A model generated the notes under the pieces. It did no database searches. It was not told where the DNA came from and saw only the letters and a program-made list of their open reading frames with translations. Below are positions 11,372 through 51,740 of a stretch of 64,000 bases of DNA, one piece after another. The stretch's first letter is position 1. Every line of letters begins with the position of its first letter. Origin of the DNA: Lumbricus terrestris (lineage: Eukaryota; Annelida; Clitellata; Crassiclitellata; Lumbricidae); contig OX457036.1 of the NCBI GenBank assembly GCA_949752735.1, forward strand, positions 82,156,505 through 82,220,504, in the 5' to 3' direction. The position numbers and the translations under genes are program-made.

Positions 11372-12081
11372 AATATGCATTATATTTGTATTACTACAGT
11401 ATTAGGCAGGGATCCCGTCCTAAAGAAAAAGGAACCGGAACGCCGGACACTCACGACTAGGGGGTCTGGGGGAGCGTCGTGAGCTCCCCCAGTGGGGTCT
11501 GGGGCGAAGCCCCAGCCGACAACGGATTTTAGGGCAATTGCTGCTGAATAGAGCCCGTTTTAGCCACTTCATTTTACTAATTTTGCTATTTTTACCACTG
11601 GATTCTTAGACGTTCTGTGATAAGTAATCTCTTTCTCATCCACTATTTATTTATGCGGAATTCCTTAGAGCCAACTCGTTTCACCCGGATTCTTCATTGC
11701 ACTTTGAGCTACTTAGGTTACCGATAAAAATTACTGTGTAGGATACTGGTAGGCCTACTTCCATATTATTAGGGCCTGCCATGAAATAATCAGACTGCTT
11801 ATTATTTTTAGCTAAACATGGAGTCAAAAGCAATGCATGAAAATAATAATAGTTGTTGGCTATGGACTACTGTTATTATGCAATGTGTCTGGCTTCTATA
11901 GGCGATTATTGACACGGATTAGTTCTCTCAACTTTATAGTCTGTGCACATCTGACACTACTACACTAGCACTATGCAAAGATGCAATACGAAAATAATGA
12001 AACGAAATATTCCAGTTAAGAAATAACACAATGAAATAAAATTGTTAGTAGTTGCATAGACAATAGCAAAAGCCATTAAAT

Positions 12082-12540
12082 TCAGTCAAATATTTTCCGC
12101 ATGTGATAGTAACGTGGCTCTTCTCGGTCCTCGCATTTCCTGGACTGATTTTCAAATGCGCCACGGTGACCGACAGCCAACCATTTCTTCACATACGGAA
12201 GCGGGTTGAAGTCCTGCAAGGACGGCCCAACAAGTTTCACAAAAATTAATTTGGATAAACGGTCAACACCTAGCCTATTCCGAAGAGGCGTACATATTAT
12301 GTTCATTGTACTGAAGCCACGTTCGGCATCCGCTGATGTTACAGGGATTGTGCTGACAGCGAAATTGATATCCGTCATGTCATCAGGTATACTGGAACCC
12401 CCATTATCAATGAAATCTCGGAAGCCTCTACGGGTCTTATCAACGTCGACACGCAGTCTCATGCAAAGTTTGGCAAGTCGCTGTTCACCGTCGTTCCAGG
12501 GTGTTGTCACGTCCGCTGGCCACGAGTGTTTGTTCAGCAC
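12082..12540 (-). CDS. hAT transposase C-terminal dimerisation domain exon
   Basis: The acceptor GTTGCAG|GTGCTGAAC (intron end 12541) joins in phase 0 to the upstream donor. The exon encodes TIPVTSADAERGFSTMN followed by PLRNRL and LSKLIFVK, the hATC signature (the ERxFS motif carries the third acidic residue by comparison with Hermes, from memory). The fold dimerises transposase and completes the active site. The stop at 12082 follows YYHMRKIFD. With the upstream exons this makes a partial transposase gene within the TSD-flanked element. Confidence 0.8.
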   Translation of the reverse strand: MLNKHSWPADVTTPWNDGEQRLAKLCMRLRVDVDKTRRGFRDFIDNGGSSIPDDMTDINFAVSTIPVTSADAERGFSTMNIICTPLRNRLGVDRLSKLIFVKLVGPSLQDFNPLPYVKKWLAVGHRGAFENQSRKCEDREEPRYYHMRKIFD

Positions 12541-12592
12541 CTGCAACTGATGACACAATAATGGATATTGGTTTTATTATCTCTAATGAACT

Positions 12593-12906
12593 AAGAAGCA
12601 AAAAGAAACACATAGGCCTAGACCTAATTGCCATATCAATAATCAATCAATCGACAACAATTATATAATTAGGCCCTGTAGCATTCCTTCAAGATCCTTA
12701 CTCAGAGGGGCTGAAAGTTCATGAAATGCAGTAGGACCTATCATAATTAAGAAGCAAAAAGAAACACATAGGCCTAGACCTAATTGCCATATCAATAATC
12801 AATCAATCGACAACAATTATATAATTAGGCCCTGTAGCATTCCTTCAAGATCCTTACTCAGAGGGGCTGAAAGTTCATGAAATGCAGTAGGACCTATCAT
12901 AATTAT
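12593..12906. repeat. 156-bp tandem duplication inside hAT intron
   Basis: The sequence from about 12595 (GAAGCAAAAAGAAACACATA) to 12750 is repeated nearly perfectly from 12751 to 12906. It lies wholly inside the predicted 403-bp intron (12541-12943). The high identity suggests a recent duplication after the element inserted. Confidence 0.92.
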
Positions 12907-12943
12907 AGGCATAGGCCTAATTATATGTAAGTTTAGTCGTTAC

Positions 12944-13330
12944 CTGTGAAATTAGTTCTTCAAATTCTGATTTATTCCGGGATGACTGAGCTGTGTTCTC
13001 AGCAGAAACGTTGGAAGCAATAACCGTATAAAGGCGACTACGCAAGTTATCGGCCAGACTCTGAAGAAACTGATTGCGTTCAATCGCAACCTGTTTGCGA
13101 CTTCCAATCCTGTGTGAAATTATTTGGACATTGCGATATTTCTGTTCAGCAACACCATCGACTGATTCCGTAATGTGCAGTGGATGCTCTTCTTTCATTT
13201 TCTCCAGTGCACGTATTGTGCGATTCATCACTTGATACGCACGTGAAAGTGTGATATCGTCTCTCTGCAGCTCTTGTGAAATATTATTGAGTTCTTGCAA
13301 AGCGTCTATCATCAATCCCAGGTTAAGCAC
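12944..13330 (-). CDS. hAT transposase middle segment
   Basis: About 129 residues containing LMIDALQELNNISQELQ and YQVMNRTIRALEKM, a helical stretch like the insertion domain that precedes the C-terminal dimerisation region of KIAA1586-like hAT transposases. It ends at a good donor (ATTTCACAG|GTAACG) at 12943. The first residue in the open frame is a GTG, not an ATG, so this is an internal exon or a frameshifted continuation of the OTU exon. The two catalytic aspartates of the core are not recognisable in it. Confidence 0.65.
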
Positions 13331-13866
13331 GAATGCCTCTTAAGGGCCTTAAGTACAGCAGACAGATTGAATCTGAGTATTTCACACCAGAATCAGGTGG
13401 TAGATTGCAGAACAGTGTGTAAGATTTGTCAGTGGGTTGCTGCCTCGTGTAAATTCTAAACTGTGTGTTCAGTATGTACGCTAAAACCAAAATTTCCAAA
13501 TAGCCTGCGTAGCCTGTGGTTTCCACACTTTCTATCCGATCTTCAACCGTCGGAAAGCTTTCTCCCACTTTATTATCCAACAGAAATCCCATATTGCATG
13601 TTACCTCCTTCAGAGCTGCTATGTTACTTCGAAGAACAGAAAGGACGTCCTGCTGGAGTTGATCAGCTAGACCTTCTTCAAGCATTATCAGTTTCTTGTC
13701 TGTTGGACAGCTGAAAACTGTTCGCCTTGCTGTTCTTAACTCTACGCTTGATGCAACGGCGACACTTCGAAATAGACATTTGCCATCTCCGTGTATGCGG
13801 ATCACATGGAACTCTTCATCTTTAGGTATACAGTCATTAATGGCATAACCAGTCGCGTTCGGCTTC
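13323..13866 (-). CDS. OTU-like cysteine protease domain exon in hAT element
   Basis: Entered through a polypyrimidine-AG acceptor at 13867. It encodes about 180 residues including HGDGKCLFRSVA, the OTU nucleophile motif with Asp and Cys three apart, and later YAGYLEILVLAYIL, the conserved OTU helix region. OTU proteases remove ubiquitin-like modifiers. The final SICLLYL strand is normally followed by the catalytic His; here the frame reads RPLRGIRA and stops, so no His is visible and activity is doubtful. The exon overlaps the next hAT segment by 8 bp in another frame, which implies either a frameshift or a small intron. It occupies the position where a hAT transposase would have the first half of its RNase-H core. 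Confidence 0.7.
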
Positions 13867-14372
13867 CTGGAAAGGCAGAAGAAATAGGCTATGGCTTCTC
13901 GTTGTCTATATAATAGGCCTACAAAAATTAACCTACCAACCGCAATGTATAGGTCTACGGTACCACTAGGCGCCTGTGAATAAGCTGGTTCTCACGACTC
14001 CGCTCTCGTGGGCGCTATAGAAGTTTTGAGATACGATAGGTATACTTGAGGTTTCCCATTGACATTGTCCTCTGCAGTCTGCATAAGCCGCCTATAGCTC
14101 TAGTTACACAATAATAATTATGATTACTACCGTGATTATAGATGTACACTTTTCGGTGAACAATAGGCCTAAAGGTGTTATTGATTAACGTAGGTCTATT
14201 GATTTATAACCTTTCTCTTTATTACTTTCTTATTTTGAAGTCAACATTTTCATAATTGTTTTCAGTCATTCCGCTTCTTATTCTTCTATTACCTTTTTCA
14301 TTTGCCATCGACTGAGCCTTAACTTCTCTGATTAATAACATGCATGCCATGGACAGTAAACAATATTCAAAC

Positions 14373-14443
14373 CTTTCCGTCGTCAATGGGTTGCGTCTTT
14401 TTGAAAAGTAATTCAGCAGATCGGCGTCTCTCAAGCGCTTCAT
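14373..14443 (-). CDS. hAT gene exon 1: short basic N-terminus
   Basis: The ATG at 14443 opens MKRLRDADLLNYFSKRR, resembling the N-terminal LLxFFxKR-type motif of KIAA1586/ZMYM-like hAT transposases (recalled by pattern). The uninterrupted ORF runs on to 14222, but a donor-like AAG|GTTTGA at 14372 joined to the strong acceptor at 13867 (TTTCTTCTGCCTTTCCAG) keeps frame into the OTU exon. That phase agreement is why I prefer the spliced model with an intron of 506 bp (13867-14372). Splicing is predicted, not observed. Confidence 0.5.
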
Positions 14444-15109
14444 CGCCTTAGTATTTAAACTAGTCGTAAAACTTAAATTAACCTCGTTCTCTGTTTAAAT
14501 AGAGAAATTAATGGAACTGTATCGACTTTATGGTGGAGTGAAATGTAAAAAATAAAGCTAAAACAAATTATAATTTTGCATTGCATCTTCTGCCCTCTAC
14601 CGGCAGTTTAGTTTGTTAAAATTCATTATTTTTTTCCTAAAAGTTACATCTCATTAAATAACTTTTTATTTCTTCAACTATTTGCAGATATTCCAACTTT
14701 GTGTACGAAGTCCGTTCATTTCAGAATATAGGCCCTAATAAAATATCATGTGTAAAAAATGTAAGCGGTAACGGAGTTATTAATTTTTTATATGTCTCGA
14801 GTCCCGATCGACAACATAAAAATGCTAAAATACACATAATTCTGCATCCCTTGACCAATTGTTATGATTTTGGTGTCATATGATTAGAATTTATATATAT
14901 AGGCATGCTAAAACATATGGAGTCATTTTAACTTAGAAATAAAAATATAGTTGGCGCTATAAATTAATGGAGTCATCCAAAAGGAGAATGAGACAGAGGG
15001 TTTACCTATGTGTATACATGGACTCTGCATGACTAGGGCTGAGCTCAACATGGGCGCAGAGAAAATTATACGAAATAAAAAACGACGCCGTACATGCAAG
15101 AATTATTTT

Positions 15110-15182
15110 ATAAAAAGGAACCGGAACGGCGTTCCGGTCGTCAAAAAAGGAACCGGAACGGCGTTCCGGTGCGTTCCGGTCC
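15110..15182. repeat. Subterminal GGAACCGGAACGGCGTTCCGG palindromic repeats of hAT
   Basis: Two AAAAAGGAACCGGAACGGCG units, each followed by its partial inverse TTCCGGT, lie just inside the right end. A related GGAACCGGAACGCCGG lies 30 bp inside the left end. Such subterminal repeats are typical hAT transposase binding sites; the role is inferred. Confidence 0.7.
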
Positions 15183-15469
15183 GACCTGTTCCCTGGTATT
15201 AGGTAAGTATGTAAGTATACGGTGCATTATAAAATGAGAACCAGCGAATGTGGAGATTAGGTCTGACGCGAAATAAAGCTAAGAGGATTTGTTACAGCTA
15301 AGGACGCATTCTAAGACCTACATTTAATTAAGTCTAACGCACCTTTACAAAAACAGAATTTTTTATGTGGCTTCGACGCTTCGTGTCACACAATAAGAAC
15401 TTAATCTTCATCTTCATCAACTACGAGAAACCGACCTTATTATATATATATATATATTATATGAATGAC

Positions 15470-17212: not shown

Positions 17213-17530
17213 CATTGACCCATAACCATGGTTCAAAAAATATGTCGACCCATAACCATGGTTCAAAAAATATGTCAACCTATAACCATGGTTCAAAAAA
17301 TATGTCAACCTATAGGCCTAACCATGGGTCAAAAATGTGTCGACCCATAACCATGGTTCAAAAAATATGTCAACCTATAACCATGGTTCAAAAAATATGT
17401 CAACCTATAACCATGGGTCAAAAATGTGTCGACCCATAACCATGGTTCAAAAAATATGCCGACTCATCAAAAAATTTGTCGACCCATAACCATGGTTCAA
17501 AAAATATGCCGACTCATCAAAAACTTCGTC
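17213..17530 (+). repeat. Left Polinton terminal array, 30-bp units
   Basis: Units of CCATAACCATGGTTCAAAAA plus ATATGTCGAC recur about ten times with a 30-bp period, including variants with GGGTC or an inserted TAGGCC. The right end (24822-24900) carries only three inverted copies. The arrays are part of the terminal inverted repeat, with unequal copy number at the two ends. Confidence 0.93.
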
Positions 17531-18334
17531 ACCCCATAACCACCCCAGCACGCGCCTATGACTCATCATGCGGGGAATTTCCAGTAGTTTCGATGATGAG
17601 TCATAGGGTGAGTGGGTTATCTTTTCGAAGAATTTGTGGGTTATCTTTTCCCATATCGGTTTGACAATTTGTTTGTATTTGTCGCTTGAAGATGATTTAG
17701 GTTTGTTAGGATTTTTTTCCTGTCTTATAGCATTCGTCGTGGTGAGAATCTCGGCGTAATCAGCTTTATCATTAACATCGTATATCGTGGGGTTAGGCTG
17801 TTTCAGCGTCAACAACTCCCAAAGCCCCGGTGTTCCTCTGTAAGTCTTATCTCCCACCGTCACATCGTCTCCTTGTATCAAAATCGGAGTGTCGCCGATG
17901 AAGAATTGATCATTTTTTTCTTTTATTCCAAACGTCGTGTCGGTGATTTTTTTATCGGAGACGTATTGACGAAGGTACTTAGTCGCCATATCTCCTAAAT
18001 ATAGGGTTCTGATATCCTCAGTCGGATCGGGGCTATACGCTTCTATCGAAGGATGCTGAGAAAATTGAAGACCCTGTAACGAAGGAAGTGCTTGTAACGC
18101 ATTTGAAGTAGCTACCGAATTTTGATTGATGGCGGATAGTAAGACATTTTGTTCTTTGGAAATTGCGGTTTGTGAATCAACGATAGGCTTGTATAACTTG
18201 GTTAATTCTTGTTGTAGTCCTGAATCCCCCAATCTCTCCGATAAAAAGTTTTGTCGAATATTCTGCCTGGTTTTCAGAATATCTGCAACGATAAGGTCTC
18301 TTTTCGCGGGGTCGGTTATTTTATAAAACGACAT
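17447..18334 (-). pseudogene. Polinton-type uncharacterised protein, C-terminus chimeric
   Basis: I start at the internal ATG giving MSFYKITDPAKRD (18334), because this opening is familiar from a widespread uncharacterised Polinton protein; the ORF itself extends upstream to 18379. The middle region has FGIKEKNDQFFIGDTPI and YRGTPGLWELLTLKQPNP, also family-typical. The last 25-30 residues read through the terminal repeat array (FLNHGYGS comes from the 30-bp unit), so the true C-terminus has been lost at a junction near 17550-17660. Role unknown; it co-occurs with virion genes, so a structural or assembly role is possible. Confidence 0.7.
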
Positions 18335-18385
18335 TTTAAAATTAGGAATATAATGTTTTTGGGCGTGTGTAAAAAACATAAGTTG

Positions 18386-18507
18386 GACGTATTTCCCAAC
18401 GTAACAACATACGTCTACATGTTTTCACGTATGTTTGCGTATGTTAGACGTATTTCCAGACGTAACAACATACGTCTACATGTTTTCACGTATGTTCGCG
18501 TTAGTCG
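18386..18507. repeat. 61-bp tandem duplication with ACGTATG/CATACGT hairpins
   Basis: Two adjacent units of about 61 bp begin GACGTATTTCC at 18386 and 18447. Each holds ACATACGT and ACGTATGT in inverse orientation around CTACATGTTTTC. They lie between two minus-strand ORFs and the second unit overlaps the 3' end of the ORF at 18476-19174, suggesting that its C-terminal residues are altered. Confidence 0.85.
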
Positions 18508-19174
18508 TTTTTTTGATAGATTCGTTATTTTTCTCAAACATGGATTGCAAGCGCTGCCTGACTTCTTCTCTTCCACGATCGATGAGTGATTGTTTCGTCA
18601 CCTCGTCCATCGCGTCTATCGCAACTTTAATATTACTTCTAATTTCTTCTTTCATGCCGTTGAATTTTTCAATCTCGCTCAGAATCAACGAATATTCCTC
18701 GGCTGAAATGTTATCATCCATGAGAGCTTTTGAAATATGGTCGCTGATCGTGTTGAGTTTCGCGTCGGCTAGCGTTTTGATTTTTTCATGCTTCTCCGCC
18801 TTCATCGCTAGCTTTTTACTGATGTAGGCACCGATTATACTTAGCAACCCCATACCCAATGCCGCTCCTTCCATAGCAATAGCAACGGGTGCCGCGATTA
18901 TGGTGGATAATACTCCGATTCCTGAAATTCCGAGTCCCATCGTAGCCGCCATGAGGACACCACCTACTGCACCGAGCACGCTTACACTTCTATGGTACTT
19001 TTTACTCAACGCTGTTCTTTTATCGCGTTCTTGTTCGATTTCCTTCTTAATTTCACCAATCTTTTGGAGTCGATAGGTTTGCGCGGACCCTGTGACGATA
19101 TGTATTTCTCCTTCCGGTGCTGATGGTAGCTTCGGATAGAGTGATTGTGTTATTTTGATGCCGTCGTTTTCCAT
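18476..19174 (-). CDS. Polinton protein with central glycine/alanine-rich hydrophobic region
   Basis: 232 residues. A polar N-terminus and a helical KIGEIKKEIEQERDKRT stretch lead to a long hydrophobic region (roughly residues 65-115, GAVGGVLMAATMGLGIS and onward) able to span a membrane twice, then a charged coiled-coil-like tail. Proteins of this layout occur in Polintons and adintoviruses. Membrane penetration or virion association is a guess from the hydrophobic region. The C-terminus overlaps the 61-bp duplication. Its 5' end overlaps the polymerase-type fragment in another frame, which marks a deletion junction just upstream. Confidence 0.6.
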   Translation of the reverse strand: MENDGIKITQSLYPKLPSAPEGEIHIVTGSAQTYRLQKIGEIKKEIEQERDKRTALSKKYHRSVSVLGAVGGVLMAATMGLGISGIGVLSTIIAAPVAIAMEGAALGMGLLSIIGAYISKKLAMKAEKHEKIKTLADAKLNTISDHISKALMDDNISAEEYSLILSEIEKFNGMKEEIRSNIKVAIDAMDEVTKQSLIDRGREEVRQRLQSMFEKNNESIKKTTNANIRENM

Positions 19175-20300
19175 TCGTTTTATTTACGCGATTTTCATGC
19201 TTCGATATATACAATGGGTATACGCTCTTTTCAAAGCCGAATACGCTAACGCTAATGTTATTACAGCGCTCAAACTTATTTATAATATTAGCATCAGCAG
19301 CAACTGGAAACACGATACCGCTCCAATCGAGTTTCTTAGATTGTTCTACCAGATCTTTAGTGATTCTTTCAGGGTGTTCATTAGCTGGGTTCAACGCCCT
19401 TGTAATACACCATTTGAAACATTCTTCGTCTTCGTTTTTCGGATTAATAATGGCCTTTTTATTGGCTAAATACTCGGGAAGCTGAATATATGAACTACCT
19501 TTCAATGGCTTGTATACTACTGTATCGATATCCAACTTCGAAACGGCCTTGAATCGCCAATTGCTACCCCGCATCTGATAACTAGCCATACTCTCCTTAA
19601 TTTTATCCACTGCGTTGGTATATATTTCCTTCACATCGGTTGCTTCTAAAATAATATCAGTCTTTGATTTGAAATTAGGCTCAGCCGTTGCTATTTCACC
19701 GGATTTTATGTCTACTTTCTCCATTACACACATGAGATTGAGTTGAACTTTTACCCCTCGATTTTTCGCTAACAGCCTAACTACCTGCGATTTTACAGCC
19801 TTGAGAAAAGATGCAACATCGACCCTGTTGTTACCCTCGATCGTGTATCTTTTTGTAAACCCTTTGATAGCCGTCGCAGTCTCTTGAAGTTTGAACCTAT
19901 GAATGGGTGGTTTTATTTGAGGTGGTAACTGACTAATCTCACTAGTCAACCAATCCAAAAAAGTAGCTTTATTTTTCCTCACAAATTTCCAAGTAGTAGA
20001 CAAGAATGCCGTAAGTTCCGCTTTTCCTAATCTTGAGTATCCTTTTTGACGTCTCTTTTTTGCAATTTCTCGCAATTCTCGTACAGTACACGGAGTACGC
20101 GTTGGAGTCTTGATGACTGGGGGCCGTGCGCCTAGCCGATCTCCATGCTTTATGAACGCGATAAGTTCCTCTTTTGGTAGTTTTGAGTATCCTTTTTGTC
20201 CTCTTTGTTTAGGAATTTGTTGCAATTCTTTCAGATTATACGTTGAGTAGTCCATTTTATATTGGGATTTCTTGTCTTTAAGTCGAGTTGCATATTCCAT
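19053..20300 (-). pseudogene. Polinton PolB N-terminal fragment
   Basis: 415 codons from ATG 20300. Two N-terminal repeats of a SAP-like LKELQQIPKQRGQKGYSKL motif (residues about 8-50 and 70-95) precede a region with YIQLPEYLANKKAIINPKN, DEECFKWCITRALNP and KLDWSGIVFPV. These are typical of the N-terminal part of Polinton family-B polymerase polyproteins. Homology stops at about LYISKHENR (near 19190); the rest is the next gene read out of frame. The exonuclease and polymerase catalytic domains are absent, so the copy cannot encode its own polymerase. A probable internal deletion with a junction at about 19175-19190. Confidence 0.8.
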
Positions 20301-20377
20301 TTTTTAGTTATTTTATATACACAAGAGAAAAAATTGTTATGATTAAGTGACTCATCGATACCATAGTTGGCAAATTC

Positions 20378-20396
20378 TGGATATATTACCGATATA
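20378..20396 (+). repeat. 19-bp direct repeat, copy 1
   Basis: TGGATATATTACCGATATA is identical to 22319-22337. The two copies bracket the ATPase, PLA2-like and integrase cassette. The ATPase stop codon lies inside this copy. Confidence 0.95.
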
Positions 20397-21015
20397 ACAA
20401 ACTTAGATCGAGGTTTTTCGAGTCCTGCTTGAACAGGCAAATAAAGTTTGCATTCTCTCTGATCGTTTGTCGTGGCAGTTTGAAATAATTCTGAGCGAGG
20501 TAAAAACAGTCCACATTACTATGCCTCCCCCGAATATAATAATCTCCGCACTTGTTTTGTTTTTCCAATTGTAAATCATCGAAAATCATCAGATTCTTCT
20601 TTTCGCTACTCATGGCTCCCGGGTCCGGTACATCATCGGCTTTTTCAAAGAACTTGGCAATTATATCGGATTTAGCTTTTGATCTTTTGGCCATTTCTTC
20701 CATAATGAGGGCTGGCGACACATTTTGTTTGGCTATTTCATCTTGAAGCTCGAATAATCCAACGATCTCTTCTTTCGGTAATTTTTCTTCGAAGGCTTTT
20801 TTAATAATACGATATTCAGGTTGAAACAGAGATTTACCGAATACCTGAAGGTTATTATAGTCCAACCAGCCTGGCCTGAGTAATAGATTCAGAAGAAGCG
20901 TCGTTTTGCCACAGCCTGACTTTCCGATTATCAGCCCCCGTATACTTTTGGGTAGCAAAGGATTATTAAATCTTTTCGATAGCGCAGATCCCCAACTCAG
21001 ATCTTTGATTTCCAT
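20386..21015 (-). pseudogene. A32-like DNA-packaging ATPase, C-terminally truncated
   Basis: 209 residues from ATG 21015. Walker A GKSGCGKT is at residues 31-38 and the Walker B segment MIFDDL at about 143-148, followed by RGRHSNVDCFYLAQNYF and RENANFICLFKQD. This is the FtsK/HerA-type ATPase that pumps DNA into capsids of Polintons and related viruses. The frame stops nine residues after KNLD, inside a 19-bp sequence (20378-20396) that is repeated exactly at 22319-22337. The C-terminal portion expected for the family is missing. It is divergent from the PLA2-like gene, only 28 bp away. Confidence 0.88.
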
Positions 21016-21043
21016 TTTTAAATATATTTATTAAAAAAGCGAG
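21016..21043. promoter_or_regulatory. 28-bp divergent promoter region, ATPase and PLA2-like genes
   Basis: Only 28 bp of A/T-rich sequence (AAATATATTTATTAAAA core) separates two divergent start codons. It must hold both transcription starts or lie within longer 5' leaders. TATA-like on both strands; promoter function is inferred. Confidence 0.45.
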
Positions 21044-21568
21044 ATGTATTGTGTAAAGTGTAAAAAACAGACTGAAACGAGAGATGTGCAGAACGTAGTG
21101 ACTAATAACGGGAGACCGATGCTTCGGGGTGTTTGCGTTGTATGCGGGAAAACTAAAACTCAATTCGTAAAAGGAGCTAAGAAAGGTGGAGATTTAGTTA
21201 GTTCGTTGAATGCAGCTACTAGTAACATTAGGCTACCTTGGGCTAAGTTCCCCGGTGAGATGCATTTACCAGGCCACCATTTTACAGGGCCAGGTACAAG
21301 GCTAGACAAGAGACTGAATCCGAACGGGACTCCTAAAGATTGGAGCAGACCTATTAATCGAGTAGATAACGCAGCATATATCCACGATCTAGCTTACGAT
21401 CAACACACCGATACAACTTCTAGAAATATCGCGGATAGGGCGATGATTAATGATTTGAATAATATTTCTAATCCTAGCTTGCGAGAACGAGTGGAGAGGG
21501 CTATAGTTAAGCCTATATTATCTACTAAGGCGAGTCTTGGGTTGGGTTTAAAAAAAGCTCTGAACTGA
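21044..21568 (+). CDS. Zinc-ribbon plus phospholipase A2-like Polinton protein
   Basis: 174 residues. An N-terminal zinc ribbon has two CxxC pairs (Cys3/Cys6 and Cys31/Cys34). A parvovirus VP1-type PLA2-like module follows: the glycine-rich calcium loop GPGTRL (82-87) and the catalytic helix YIHDLAY (112-118) with His114-Asp115. Family knowledge: this PLA2 type cleaves membrane phospholipids during virion entry, and related proteins occur in adintoviruses and Polintons. The key residues seen here look intact. Its 3' end overlaps the upstream-extended integrase frame. Function in this degraded element is unknown. Confidence 0.85.
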   Translation: MYCVKCKKQTETRDVQNVVTNNGRPMLRGVCVVCGKTKTQFVKGAKKGGDLVSSLNAATSNIRLPWAKFPGEMHLPGHHFTGPGTRLDKRLNPNGTPKDWSRPINRVDNAAYIHDLAYDQHTDTTSRNIADRAMINDLNNISNPSLRERVERAIVKPILSTKASLGLGLKKALN

Positions 21569-22254
21569 AATGGACTGATCAATTAGCCGATGAATTGCAC
21601 AAACCGGTAGTTAGACATTTTAGAAAAAGGAAGGTTTACGCCGGGGGTATAGATGAGATATGGGCTGCCGATTTGGTGGATATGCAGGCCTTTGCTAAAG
21701 ATAACGATAGGGTGAAATACCTGCTGACTGTAATAGATGTGTTTTCTAAATACGGGTGGATTGTACCATTGAAAGACAAGACTGGGAAATCAACAGCTGA
21801 CGGCTTCGTGAAGATACTCAAGGGTGGACGAAAGCCGATTAAGTTATGGGTTGATAAAGGGAAGGAATTTTATAATAAGGATGTAAAGAATTTGGTTGAG
21901 TTGTACTCTACTGAAAATGAGGAAAAATCTTGCGTTGTTGAGAGATGGAACCGAACGATGAAAGAAAAGATGTATAAATATTTTTCAGCTAACTCGACGA
22001 GAAGATATATCAACGTTTTGGATGAAATGGTGGGTAATTATAACAATACCAGGCACGTTTCGATTAAAATGACTCCCGCCAAGGCTAGTATGAAAGTGAA
22101 TGAAAAAACTGTATTTATGAATTTATACGGTAAAGAGATTTCGGAACCTATTGTACCAAAGTTTTCAATTGGTGATAAAGTTAGAATAACTAAAAAGAAG
22201 AATATTTTTGAGAAGGGATACACACCTAGATGGACTGAGGAGGTATTTACCTAG
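21541..22254 (+). pseudogene. Polinton DDE integrase, C-terminally truncated
   Basis: The frame is open upstream of the first TTG at 21595 back to at least 21541, overlapping the PLA2-like gene; no ATG is obvious, so the start is uncertain. The catalytic pattern is visible: Asp in WAADLVDM, Asp in LWVDKGKEFY and Glu in VVERWNRTMK. The second and third are separated by 28 residues, shorter than the retroviral D-35-E spacing but apparently normal for this group (from memory). The C-terminal GDKVRITKKK...GYTPRWTEEVF region begins but stops at 22252-22254, so the DNA-binding tail is incomplete. The enzyme inserts Polintons with 6-bp duplications, matching CCCCCT. Confidence 0.88.
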
Positions 22255-22318
22255 GGTAAATAACTTAACTGTTTCATACCCGAAACTTCAAAAGACGATG
22301 AAATTAACTTAACAAACT

Positions 22319-22337
22319 TGGATATATTACCGATATA
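22319..22337 (+). repeat. 19-bp direct repeat, copy 2
   Basis: Identical to 20378-20396. It lies 65 bp beyond the premature end of the integrase frame. It may be a shared gene-end or promoter motif, or the footprint of a rearrangement. Confidence 0.95.
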
Positions 22338-22385
22338 TTTTTAAATTTAATTTACAGATAATCTCCCGCGTTTATAGTTACAAAA

Positions 22386-22985
22386 TTATAATAACATGTC
22401 GATAAACGGAATGCCTCGAAACGGGGAATCGGGGCCTAGCAAAAGTCCTTTACCTATAGGCACAAATCCCGACCCTGTTTTCATGTACAACCCGGATGCC
22501 TTTATTGTGCCGCCTTTTTGCCAAGGGGACAGGAACAAACCAGACCCGGCTGCTCTTATCTTACACGTCTTATCACCGTCCTTAACATACACTACCCCAG
22601 ATCCGCAAATTTTATCGACAATCTTCGTAGCCCCGGCAGAACCTACACCGCTCATAGCTCCCATCGCTAAACTAGGTAGCAATTTAGATAGAATGAATTT
22701 ACCCGCCGTTGCAATAAACGGAAGTATAGCGCCTATGAATCCTCATTCGACTTTTCTATTGTTCTCCAATTGCGTTTTACTCATTTTAATGATCACGCCA
22801 GTTCCTTTTTGACACGCCTTTGTCATTTTATTGATTTGTGCCTGCGTTAGAGCTAACACATGCTGCCCGTCCATATCATCATGCGACAGTTTGATACTCA
22901 CACCAGTTCCCGCTTGAAAAGATCTTTGAATTTTGTCTTTTTGCGCTTCTGAAATATTAACTTTTACACCTATGTAACGACTCAT
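22386..22985 (-). pseudogene. pX-like Polinton virion protein, nonsense interrupted
   Basis: The gene starts at ATG 22985 with MSRYIGVKVNISEAQKDKIQ, followed by VSIKLSHDDMDGQHVLALT, both typical of a Polinton core-protein family compared with adenovirus pX/pVI. After 80 codons an in-frame TGA (22743-22745) interrupts it. The same frame stays open beyond it to 22386 with a small hydrophobic stretch and repeats around GSGLFLSPWQ and GKGLLLGPDS. A point nonsense mutation is the simplest explanation; the full frame would be about 199 codons. Confidence 0.8.
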
Positions 22986-23010
22986 TTTAATATAAATTAC
23001 AAAAAAACTT

Positions 23011-23903
23011 TCAAACTTCTCTGATATGAAAACGAATCGTCAAGTCTTCTCCTCTAAGGTTTAGCTTTTTCCCATCTTGATCTGTGAGCGTCGTTATCAT
23101 CGTTGAAATTGAAGATAGCGTAATGGGTAGATAAGTTAGAATCGGCGGCACTTCGATAATTTTGTACCCCGGCCCTACGTCTGGGAAAAAACAATGTATC
23201 ACGTTTTTCTTCGTTCCGTTTACGTATGAACCCCGATAATATCGTTAGTCACTAGTATACTGTTAATACTCATTATTTTTACCATGTTCTTCGATTCATT
23301 ATTACCAGACCGATAGCGTAATCCTTCAAAACCTAGAACTGATCTGATCGAATTCTTAGGTTCAAAGGAAACCCGATAGCCCTCTGCTATACTTACCACA
23401 GACTTCTGCGTATTGGTGTTTGCTCCTAAGCTGATATAGTACTTTCCATTTACCGCGTCGTAATGCCCTTTATCCTTCATGGTTTCCTGTATATGTGCGT
23501 TGATACCAGTTATTTCATAGCATCCTTCAGGGACTTCTATGTCAATCCACTCGTTCTCGTTGTCTTCAGTTGGCGAATATCTGAAGTTGTTGTTTGTCTT
23601 GTCGATATTTGGAAAGGAATAGTACGTATAGAGATCTAAAAGAGCCATTTCGTAGTTTTTATTTGTGTCTAGTTCAAGTGGCGGATTAAAATTTGTTATG
23701 ATTCGTGTGTCGTTCGCGCTTACCGTAATGTCTGTTTGACTACCTCGAGATAGCTGTTGGGTCAGACGTTGACTCAAACATTCAGGCCCACGAGTTTTCA
23801 GCTGCGTACTTACGACCCTAAATTCTACCAAATCGATGGAAAATATAGGTAGTTTGTATTGACTAGTAAAAATATTATCGCGTAATAAAATGCCTGTTAA
23901 CAT
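23011..23903 (-). pseudogene. Penton-like minor capsid gene, frameshifted
   Basis: Two adjacent minus ORFs (23220-23903 and 23011-23202) are halves of one family-typical protein. The first has LELDTNKNYEMALLDLYTYY and PEGCYEITGINAHIQETM; the second has FFPDVGPGYKI and LTDQDGKKLNLRGEDLTIRF. The frames differ by one around a GGGG run near 23230, so a single-base indel broke it. This is the single-jelly-roll penton (minor capsid) candidate of Polintons and adintoviruses. The first roughly 35 codons cross a remnant of another C1q-like gene end (23796-23827), so the annotated 5' end is probably not original. Confidence 0.78.
23796..23827 (+). pseudogene. Remnant C-terminus of a second C1q-like gene
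   Basis: Plus-strand TTTTCAGCTGCGTACTTACG and the following bases match 24489-24521, the end of the intact C1q-like gene, with only a few substitutions, including the stop codon. A second C1q-like gene, or an ancestral copy, therefore once ended here. Only about ten codons remain. Confidence 0.75.
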
Positions 23904-24516
23904 TTTTGGACAAATGGACGGCGGATCGGCACCACGGGTAGAAGCGGGTGGTGTCTCATATCCTCAAGTCAACAATACTTTTCTAAGACGAGATGGAGCG
24001 AATGCAGCTGTGGAAAATATCGACTTGGGTACAAAAAAGCTGATTAATGTGGCAGATCCTTCCGATCTTCAAGACGCTGCTACAAAGAATTACATGCATT
24101 CGACTGCATTTGGTCCAACGTTTAGTGCTTACAATTCCAATCCCAAATTTCAGGGGATTCCTGGCATAATTCACACAAAAGTATTATTTAATACAACAAG
24201 ATGCGATACTGATTCTTGCTTCATCACCAGTTCGAGCCGTTTCTTCCCCCAGAAAGCTGGATATTACACCGTTTCCGTTTTTGTGGAATTTCAGGACGAT
24301 AAAACAAGAAATTACGGTAACGTTTACCTATACAAAAATGGAACATTGTACATGCAGATTGCTGGTGGGGGAGGCGTTGTTGGATTGTATATTAACGCAA
24401 CGGGTAATACCGTAGTTTACTTAACAAATACCGACTACCTCGAGATATTTGCTGAAGCGAACGCCCCTGTAGTCATATTAGGTAGGGACTTTTCAGCCGC
24501 ATACTTACGGCCCTAA
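23890..24516 (+). CDS. C1q/TNF-like fibre-type Polinton protein
   Basis: 208 residues, intact from ATG 23890. The N-terminus VNNTFLRRDGANAAVENIDL through PSDLQDAATKNYM resembles tail-fibre/collar linker sequence in phage and Polinton proteins. The C-terminal 130 residues (KVLFNTTRCD, FFPQKAGYYTVSVFVEF, NVYLYKNGTLY, LEIFAEA) have the alternating beta pattern of a C1q/TNF jelly roll. In Polintons such proteins are candidates for trimeric receptor-binding fibres (inference). It starts 14 bp inside the opposing penton-like ORF, supporting the view that the latter's 5' end is an artefact. Confidence 0.78.
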   Translation: MPVNIFGQMDGGSAPRVEAGGVSYPQVNNTFLRRDGANAAVENIDLGTKKLINVADPSDLQDAATKNYMHSTAFGPTFSAYNSNPKFQGIPGIIHTKVLFNTTRCDTDSCFITSSSRFFPQKAGYYTVSVFVEFQDDKTRNYGNVYLYKNGTLYMQIAGGGGVVGLYINATGNTVVYLTNTDYLEIFAEANAPVVILGRDFSAAYLRP

Positions 24517-50205: not shown

Positions 50206-50393
50206 ATACTATAGAGTCTATGCCGCACGTTTTTGGATTTAGCAAAAATGCGTATTTTTACATTTGACCGCCTTTACCAATTCTATTAATTTTACATGCT
50301 TTCTACCATGTCTGTGTCCCAAAATGCGGTTAGCAATTAATGATCAAATAAGATATTCTTGTTTTAACTACTGTAACAGGATTGTATTTAACG

Positions 50394-51740
50394 ATGGCTG
50401 GCGAAGGTGATTGGCTGATGAACGGATCTGCAATCCAATTGGACCAGCTGCTCCTCTTTCTAGTCAACACTTCCAGCTTCGACCTCCACCTCCCAAACGC
50501 CTCCACCGCCAACCACACCGCCAACCACACCACCAACCACACCACCAACCACACCACCAACCACACCACCAACGACGACGGCTACCTCCTCAACATCTGG
50601 AATTGTTCTGCGGACGACGACGAACACTGCGACCAATCGATCCTTCGACTGAGACGCATCGTCGACAAACTTGACCTCTGTCTCGTTCCAGCCATCGTCC
50701 TCATCGGTCTCCTCGGCAACTTCCTCTCCTTCCTCGTCTTCGCCGGAACCTACCTTCGCCGGATGTCAAGCAGCGTCTACCTGGCAGCGCTGGCCGTCAC
50801 CGACATCGTCTTTCTGCTCGTCCTCTTCATCACGTGGCTCGCCAACTTCGACATCATTCTGCTCCACACCCACATCTGGTGCCAGCTGTTCGTCTACCTC
50901 TCCTACATCGCTAGTTTCCTGTCCGTCTGGTACGTCGTCTGCTTCACCGTCGAGCGTCACCTCACCGTCTGCTTCCCACTCGAGCGACAGAAGATCTGTC
51001 AGCCGCGACGGTCGAAGATAGTCGTCGGGGTCTTAGCAGGACTGGCGATGGTCATCTACAGCTTCGCGTTGTGGACTTCAAAGGTGGACGTCTACAACGG
51101 TCATCCGACCTGCGGTGTCCACGACGAACGCTACTACGACATCGTGACGAACATCAACAACGCCGACACGCTCGTCACCCTCGTCCTTCCGGCCGTCATC
51201 ATCACCGTCAGCAACGTTCGCATCTCATACGCGCTGTCCAAGTTCTACAAGAGCTACCAGACTGTTCAGATCGTCGACCGATCGAGCAGCTGCACGAGCG
51301 GCAGTCTCCGCTCGACCCCTGGCGGACAGTCGTTCTATTCGAACTCGTCGTACAACCGACTGCACATGCGAGTGACGAAGATGCTACTGCTCGTCTCCAG
51401 CGTCTTCCTCCTCTGCAACATTCCAAGCCACGCCATCCGTGTCTACGCATTCTTCCGCACGACGTTCGACTCTGACTACCTGCCGTCGCATCGCCTCCTT
51501 CTGGTGCAGAGGCTGTCCATGCAGCTCTACTACATGAGCTTCTCCAGCAACTTCATCCTCTACAACATATCTGGAAGGACGTTCCGTCGAGCCTTCGTCC
51601 GTCTCTTTCGATGTCTCGCTGCTCGCGTCGTTGCCTTCACATACACACGATTCGTGATGGTCCGAACGAGACATCACGTCGCTCAACCGAAGACAACCAT
51701 ACGAATGAGGTTCGTCGGACACGACTGCGCATACAACTAA
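50394..51740 (+). CDS. Class A neuropeptide-type G-protein-coupled receptor
   Basis: 448 residues in one exon from ATG 50394 (an upstream in-frame TTG is not used). The extracellular N-terminus has many N-glycosylation sequons, including five tandem Asn-His-Thr at about residues 40-57. TM1 (about 95-119) has GNFLSFLVF, TM2 AALAVTDIVF with the conserved Asp, TM3 starts at WCQLF and ends TVERHLTVCFPLER (E-R-H in place of D-R-Y). TM4 has ALW, TM5 VLPAVII, TM6 VSSVFLLCNIPSH and TM7 SSNFILY in place of NPxxY. The cysteine in TM3 and ECL2 (HPTCGV) can form the usual disulphide. This resembles invertebrate FMRFamide/TRH-receptor-like peptide receptors; the ligand is unknown. Strongly GC-rich at third positions against an AT-rich flank. 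Confidence 0.92.
   Translation: MAGEGDWLMNGSAIQLDQLLLFLVNTSSFDLHLPNASTANHTANHTTNHTTNHTTNHTTNDDGYLLNIWNCSADDDEHCDQSILRLRRIVDKLDLCLVPAIVLIGLLGNFLSFLVFAGTYLRRMSSSVYLAALAVTDIVFLLVLFITWLANFDIILLHTHIWCQLFVYLSYIASFLSVWYVVCFTVERHLTVCFPLERQKICQPRRSKIVVGVLAGLAMVIYSFALWTSKVDVYNGHPTCGVHDERYYDIVTNINNADTLVTLVLPAVIITVSNVRISYALSKFYKSYQTVQIVDRSSSCTSGSLRSTPGGQSFYSNSSYNRLHMRVTKMLLLVSSVFLLCNIPSHAIRVYAFFRTTFDSDYLPSHRLLLVQRLSMQLYYMSFSSNFILYNISGRTFRRAFVRLFRCLAARVVAFTYTRFVMVRTRHHVAQPKTTIRMRFVGHDCAYN
50507..50572 (+). repeat. In-frame 12-bp repeat coding Asn-His-Thr-Thr
   Basis: The unit ACCAACCACACC is repeated about five times inside the receptor N-terminus. Each unit adds one glycosylation sequon, and the number is likely to vary between alleles (inference). 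Confidence 0.9.

Follow-up and report, generated by a model that had tools for sequence, protein, structure and literature searches.

An internally deleted hAT transposon of Lumbricus terrestris with probable intact relatives that join an OTU protease to a KIAA1586-like transposase

A stretch of 64,000 nucleotides from Lumbricus terrestris (assembly GCA_949752735.1, contig OX457036.1, positions 82,156,505 to 82,220,504 of the forward strand), here called the window and used for all coordinates, contains a hAT element of 3,789 bp at positions 11407-15195, with its gene on the minus strand. We consider it very probable that this element is a non-autonomous copy, shortened by an internal deletion, of a cut-and-paste hAT transposon whose intact relatives encode an OTU cysteine protease together with a KIAA1586-like hAT transposase. 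In database relatives the order of domains is an OTU cysteine protease, a CxxC...H zinc-finger-like motif and a KIAA1586-like hAT core, and one of them, the protein P0001, is 99% identical to the window copy on both sides of the deletion. About 1.5 kb would have been lost between the OTU and hAT parts and, because of this loss, the window copy would encode neither a working protease nor a working transposase; with its ends retained, it could be moved only by a transposase made elsewhere.

The element is flanked on both sides, as the original prediction claimed, by an exact 8-bp target-site duplication (TSD), GTATTAGG, the length of duplication expected of a hAT. Its termini read CAGGGATCC...TTCCCTG, with CAGGGA/TCCCTG at both ends and a match at 10 of the first 13 bases between the two terminal inverted repeats (TIRs); a CAGGG-like start is the consensus of hAT TIRs. 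Among 139 CAGGG/CCCTG pairs spaced 0.1-6 kb apart in the window, an exact 8-bp flanking repeat was found only at 11407-15195 (naive chance expectation 0.002), while the flanks of three other pairs agree at 7 of 8 positions. The subterminal repeat GGAACCGGAACG occurs near both ends. No second copy of the element was found elsewhere in the 64-kb window, Rfam and tRNA scans returned no matches, and three matches of a 17-base subterminal repeat to viral contigs are taken as chance. The features of the element are as follows.

11399-11406, no strand: left TSD GTATTAGG, identical to 15196-15203
11407-15195, minus strand: hAT element, very probably an internally deleted copy, with CAGGGA/TCCCTG ends, TSD and coding exons
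11407-11419, plus strand: left TIR, 10 of 13 bases shared with the right end
11431-11442, plus strand: subterminal repeat GGAACCGGAACG, with more copies starting at 15117 and 15149
12082-12540, minus strand: exon 3, encoding the C-terminal dimerisation region of the hAT, which includes the Glu of AERGFS (PF05699, 22.6 bits)
12541-12943, minus strand: intron 2 (predicted), 403 bp, GT/AG, phase preserved
12589-12900, no strand: tandem duplication of 156 bp within intron 2, 155/156 identical
12944-13339, minus strand: 3' part of exon 2, middle of the hAT transposase beyond the second Asp, 139/140 identical to P0001 over 13339-12920
13340-13346, minus strand: putative deletion junction, P0001 residues 154-656 absent, 7 unmatched bases and a frame shift remaining
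13341-13790, minus strand: OTU-like cysteine protease domain (PF02338), ending before the catalytic His, Asp/Cys retained as DGKC, 152/153 identical to P0001
13867-14372, minus strand: intron 1 (predicted), 506 bp, GT donor, CAG acceptor, phase preserved
14373-14443, minus strand: exon 1, start codon and basic N-terminal motif MKRLRDADLLNYFSKRR, in-phase junction over a GT/AG intron
15183-15195, minus strand: right TIR
15196-15203, no strand: right TSD GTATTAGG

Exon 1 (14443-14373) continues in phase into the OTU frame across the predicted GT/AG intron 14372-13867, and the two hAT exons are likewise in phase across the predicted GT/AG intron 12943-12541, at the position of which main-clade relatives also depart from the aligned frame. 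The OTU and hAT parts share one exon and lie in different frames: the OTU frame terminates at the TAA at 13323-13325, and a TAA at 13342-13340 directly precedes the hAT frame, which starts at 13339. The original prediction of exons joined in frame therefore holds for exon 1 with the OTU and for the two hAT exons with each other, but not for OTU with hAT, where the frames differ and TAAs intervene. With the deletion and frame break at 13340-13346, the copy has no open transposase frame of the kind an autonomous hAT carries. The 156-bp tandem duplication within intron 2 is probably recent.

The OTU domain matched PF02338 at 29.5 bits, above the curated cut-off of 23.3 (E 1.2e-6, profile positions 2-121 of 128), at residues 26-175 in the translation of 13865-13326; the OTU of P0001 reached 32.9 bits. 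Profile support, on which the OTU call had been staked, is thus present, and chance was rejected as the source of the call, given a Pfam score above cut-off and relatives with the same domain order. The predicted Asp/Cys motif is indeed kept as DGKC, but the stretch holding the catalytic His (GHYD in P0001) is absent from this copy. The hAT C-terminal domain was likewise recovered, as Dimer_Tnp_hAT (PF05699) at 22.6 bits against a cut-off of 21.4 in the translation of 12573-12085. The family profile A2 matched the Hermes transposase in the dimerisation region (E 2e-4), and exon 3 is 43.6% identical to the relative P0002 over 163 aligned residues. Of the D, D and E catalytic motifs of hAT transposases, only the E, in AERGFS, remains in the window copy. 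No Pfam match above a cut-off was obtained for the frame of exon 1 or for the middle part of the hAT, and a sequence search of the PDB with the window OTU alone gave no match at E 1.

P0001 (796 aa, from a 4,137-base contig) was retrieved by a protein search with the joined window pieces, which gave at least seven matches among 8000 candidates scored. Its residues 1-153 are identical to the window OTU at 152 of 153 positions, the sole mismatch being the first residue (Met in P0001, Val in the window), probably a GTG start call, and its residues 657-796 agree with the window hAT piece at 139 of 140. In a tblastn search these two segments fell at 13805-13347 and 13339-12920, respectively. Residues 154-656 (503 aa, about 1.5 kb) are absent from the window; they hold the GHYD of the OTU, the CxxC...H motif and the aspartates D446 and D515. 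Since P0001 matches both sides of the junction and has 503 residues in between, the window copy is, by this alignment, a putative Ds-like deletion derivative that keeps both of its ends. P0001 extends past the exon end and its last residues, VTTKLTYN, correspond to the unspliced frame of the window inside intron 2, so that it looks like translated genomic DNA.

The original prediction proposed that captured OTU sequence stands where the first half of the RNase-H core would otherwise be, which would yield a functional OTU-hAT protein of a new kind with half a core. The window OTU does run directly into the C-terminal half of the hAT within a single exon; however, the two parts lie in different frames with stops on either side of the join, all 30 rows of alignment A2 have both aspartates, and the 99%-identical P0001 has the missing core between the parts. 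As P0001 carries the OTU, the CxxC...H motif, D446 and D515, followed by the same hAT stretch, replacement was rejected and a half-core protein is scarcely credible. P0001 is itself a longer version with both aspartates, which had been named as a test of core deletion. Two other suggestions of the original prediction fared better: a deleted autonomous element describes the window copy, whose deletion P0001 flanks at 99% identity, and a new composite lineage describes the family, with relatives that place an OTU before the hAT core.

The prediction also depended on other proteins having the OTU-hAT order, and such proteins were found. A search with the P0001 core returned at least 45 proteins at E 0.01, P0001 included, among 7998 candidates scored, and nine of them have an OTU ahead of the hAT core. 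Seven of these OTUs appear in the precomputed Pfam column (P0001, P0008, P0009, P0012, P0019, P0024 and P0028); that of P0011 was detected by Pfam scan at 25.2 bits, and that of the N-truncated P0013, at 16.4 bits and below cut-off, was assigned by scan and alignment. Our own Pfam scans covered 32 of the 45 proteins, and the other 13 were taken from the precomputed column. P0019 and P0028 encode the OTU, the CxxC motif, the core and the C-terminal region in one uninterrupted reading frame, so the fusion needs no splicing guesses. Both hold all three D, D and E motifs, and their hAT dimerisation regions scored 22.4 bits (above cut-off) and 21.2 bits (just under 21.4), respectively. A basic motif precedes the OTU in the window copy and in P0028. 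An assembly chimaera was judged an unlikely source of the fusion, because the nine OTU-hAT sequences are spread over three types of source (lgn, ena and jgi). No matches were obtained with the OTU in tblastn against phages, with P0001 and alignment A1 against viral contigs, or with alignment A1 against prokaryote genomes, and tblastn of the C-terminus against plasmids gave one weak match (E 0.04, 26% identity). A further relative, P0016 (a KIAA1586-like hAT from Hyperolius riggenbachi), continues into a reverse transcriptase domain (63.2 bits), a join that may be a nested insertion or a gene-model fusion.

Such OTUs could be passengers, host gene fragments caught by hATs, kept by chance and useless to the transposon; many relatives show no OTU, and the domain evolves faster than the core. 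Against this, no OTU long enough to be assessed has lost a catalytic motif: DGxC is there in all seven with an N-terminus (P0011 and P0013 begin after its position), and all nine have the His of H[YF]. Between P0001 and P0008 or P0009, identity is 49-52% in the OTU, 17-24% in the linker and 66-68% in the hAT core. Since the OTU is this much better conserved than the linker, it looks constrained in these alignments. A passenger origin would also have to accommodate the presence, in close relatives, of another protease piece of deconjugating type at the OTU position, and is in our judgement quite improbable.

That piece belongs to P0010 and P0015, which are closely related to the OTU-hAT clade and have a CE-clan, Ulp1-like sequence with a DCGLFAIATA motif at the OTU position. 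Its best E values came from the YopJ family (9.5e-5) and from C48 (0.023), with scores under the curated cut-offs where bits are shown; in the PDB a Ulp1-like SUMO protease came first at 0.006, followed by an unrelated chain at 0.027. The N-terminal part of the piece is apparently absent in both proteins. A swap of OTU for Ulp1-like is possible and no more than that: a tree in which the main OTU group, P0014 included, forms a clade without the Ulp1-like pair was not rejected (p 0.42), and the branch nesting the pair inside that group has a support of 77/55. That several lineages have an OTU, and that a Ulp1-like piece occupies its position in close relatives, suggests selection for a deconjugating activity and not for any one protein.

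The history of the OTU was considered on a transposase tree of 48 of 50 rows (without P0005 and P0006, which are close to P0004). The protease label is 'unknown' for 26 of the 48, including P0021, P0026 and P0038, later counted among 12 relatives without OTU. With unknown rows counted as lacking it, the tree requires six changes of the OTU label, and well-supported branches make five of these unavoidable; with unknown rows excluded, five changes suffice for all labels together. Gain and loss of the OTU are indistinguishable on this tree, which leaves room for a single ancestral fusion followed by many losses, a rival to repeated capture and not to the identity of the element. In its favour, the two OTU profiles, of the main clade and of the others, align end to end (hhalign probability 95%) as one superfamily. 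On the other hand, a single clade of all nine OTU-hAT proteins was rejected (approximately unbiased test, p 4.2e-5), identity to the P0001 OTU is only 16-19% in P0019, P0024 and P0028, and the nearest PDB entries differ in order, the second profile finding OTUD5 first with yeast OTU2 close behind and the main one finding yeast OTU2 weakly. We regard one ancestral fusion as a serious possibility, though on the improbable side. Repeated capture is the preferred, though unproven, reading of these sequence comparisons: KIAA1586-type hATs may have taken up cysteine proteases of the ubiquitin/SUMO type repeatedly at one N-terminal place, the OTU in at least two to three lineages and a Ulp1-like protease once, possibly swapped for an OTU, as removal of conjugates from the transposase or its surroundings would overcome a general host limit on transposition. 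We put this forward tentatively.

Several observations weigh against the interpretation as a whole. None of the sources of the nine OTU-hAT proteins gives an organism name, no organism-named relative has an OTU in the Pfam column, and that P0001 derives from the same or a near species is our assumption. The deletion is read from a protein alignment with P0001 and not from its DNA, and the zinc-finger-like motif of P0001, which has no Pfam name, was recognised by eye and by alignment. The main OTU profile is weak against the PDB (yeast OTU2 best at 0.006, unrelated chains from 0.08), and a search with the P0001 OTU alone, in which shared 5-residue words were needed, returned only P0001 among 428 candidates. 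Twelve of the 45 relatives have at least 60 residues ahead of the core and no OTU in scans, from which it follows that the OTU is not required for KIAA1586-like hAT transposases; only P0021 of the 12 is long enough for a whole OTU, so an upstream exon may have been missed in the other 11, and 22 of the 45 start too late to be judged.

As to function, fusion to the transposase would let the OTU work in cis or where the transposon ends are paired. It could strip ubiquitin from the transposase, which would then be longer-lived, or from proteins at the site of transposition, which would ease repair or the control of silencing. Deubiquitination of the transposase or of site proteins, favouring transposition, is thus a putative role that we find attractive but hold with some reserve. 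The OTU might instead be a self-processing protease or a docking domain, since sequence cannot separate ubiquitin from other targets and the substrate is not known. This is unlikely in our view: OTU enzymes of known activity mostly act on ubiquitin-like conjugates, and the Ulp1-like piece in place of the OTU points to a shared class of conjugates.

Elsewhere in the window, a gene cluster at 17447-24516 includes a Pox_A32-type ATPase (20389-21027, minus strand), an integrase core just under cut-off (21529-22251, plus strand), a phospholipase A2-like plus DUF5679 protein (21035-21565, plus strand) and a Rho_N protein (19056-20303, minus strand); three more frames in it had no Pfam match. This gene set is typical of Polinton/adintovirus-like elements. 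A single open frame at 50352-51740 (plus strand) encodes a rhodopsin-family G-protein-coupled receptor domain (7tm_1, 81.8 bits); this gene, like the introns, is in keeping with an animal-like eukaryote.

The organism-named relative P0002 (Pelobates fuscus; source name E3 SUMO-protein ligase KIAA1586-like) shares the N-terminal KRK..I..FF motif, the CxxC...H motif, the hAT core, 45% identical to that of P0001, and the C-terminal region, but its N-terminal motif is followed by the CxxC motif with no OTU in between. In titles and abstracts of the literature searched, that on KIAA1586 included, no hAT with an OTU or Ulp1 was found, coverage being partial, with few subscription papers and Repbase outside its scope.

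Internal deletion derivatives are exemplified by maize Ds, which derives from Ac and, like the window copy, is a deleted hAT that moves only with an intact helper; unlike the window copy, Ds is a plant element, with no OTU mentioned in the passages cited (PMC3260210). DNA transposases fused to an OTU or Ulp1 protease domain are found in Ginger1, according to the parts of the source cited here, where Bao, Kapitonov and Jurka proposed a role of both domains in repair (PMC2836005). Ginger1, as characterised there, combines a Gypsy-integrase-like transposase and CCGG/CCGT target sites with a C-terminal protease, whereas the window element has a hAT domain, the 8-bp TSD GTATTAGG and an N-terminal protease. 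By analogy, the OTU and Ulp1 of Ginger1 are an apparent independent parallel to the OTU/Ulp1-like pair in hATs (PMC2836005). Helitrons with an OTU or VTD similarly join a transposon protein to a deubiquitinase-like domain, with protease classes side by side or alternating, although the host protein is a rolling-circle RepHel and not a transposase; their deubiquitinases are suggested to protect proteins that transposition requires from being degraded, and as of the passages cited transposon OTUs were without activity tests (PMC9741609).

With OTU and Ulp1 already known on Ginger1 and OTU on Helitrons, hATs would be a third, mechanistically distinct superfamily. The presence on hATs of an OTU, and of a Ulp1-like alternative to it, makes 'deconjugation helps transposition' a testable general rule, and hAT elements with cell-based mobility assays exist.

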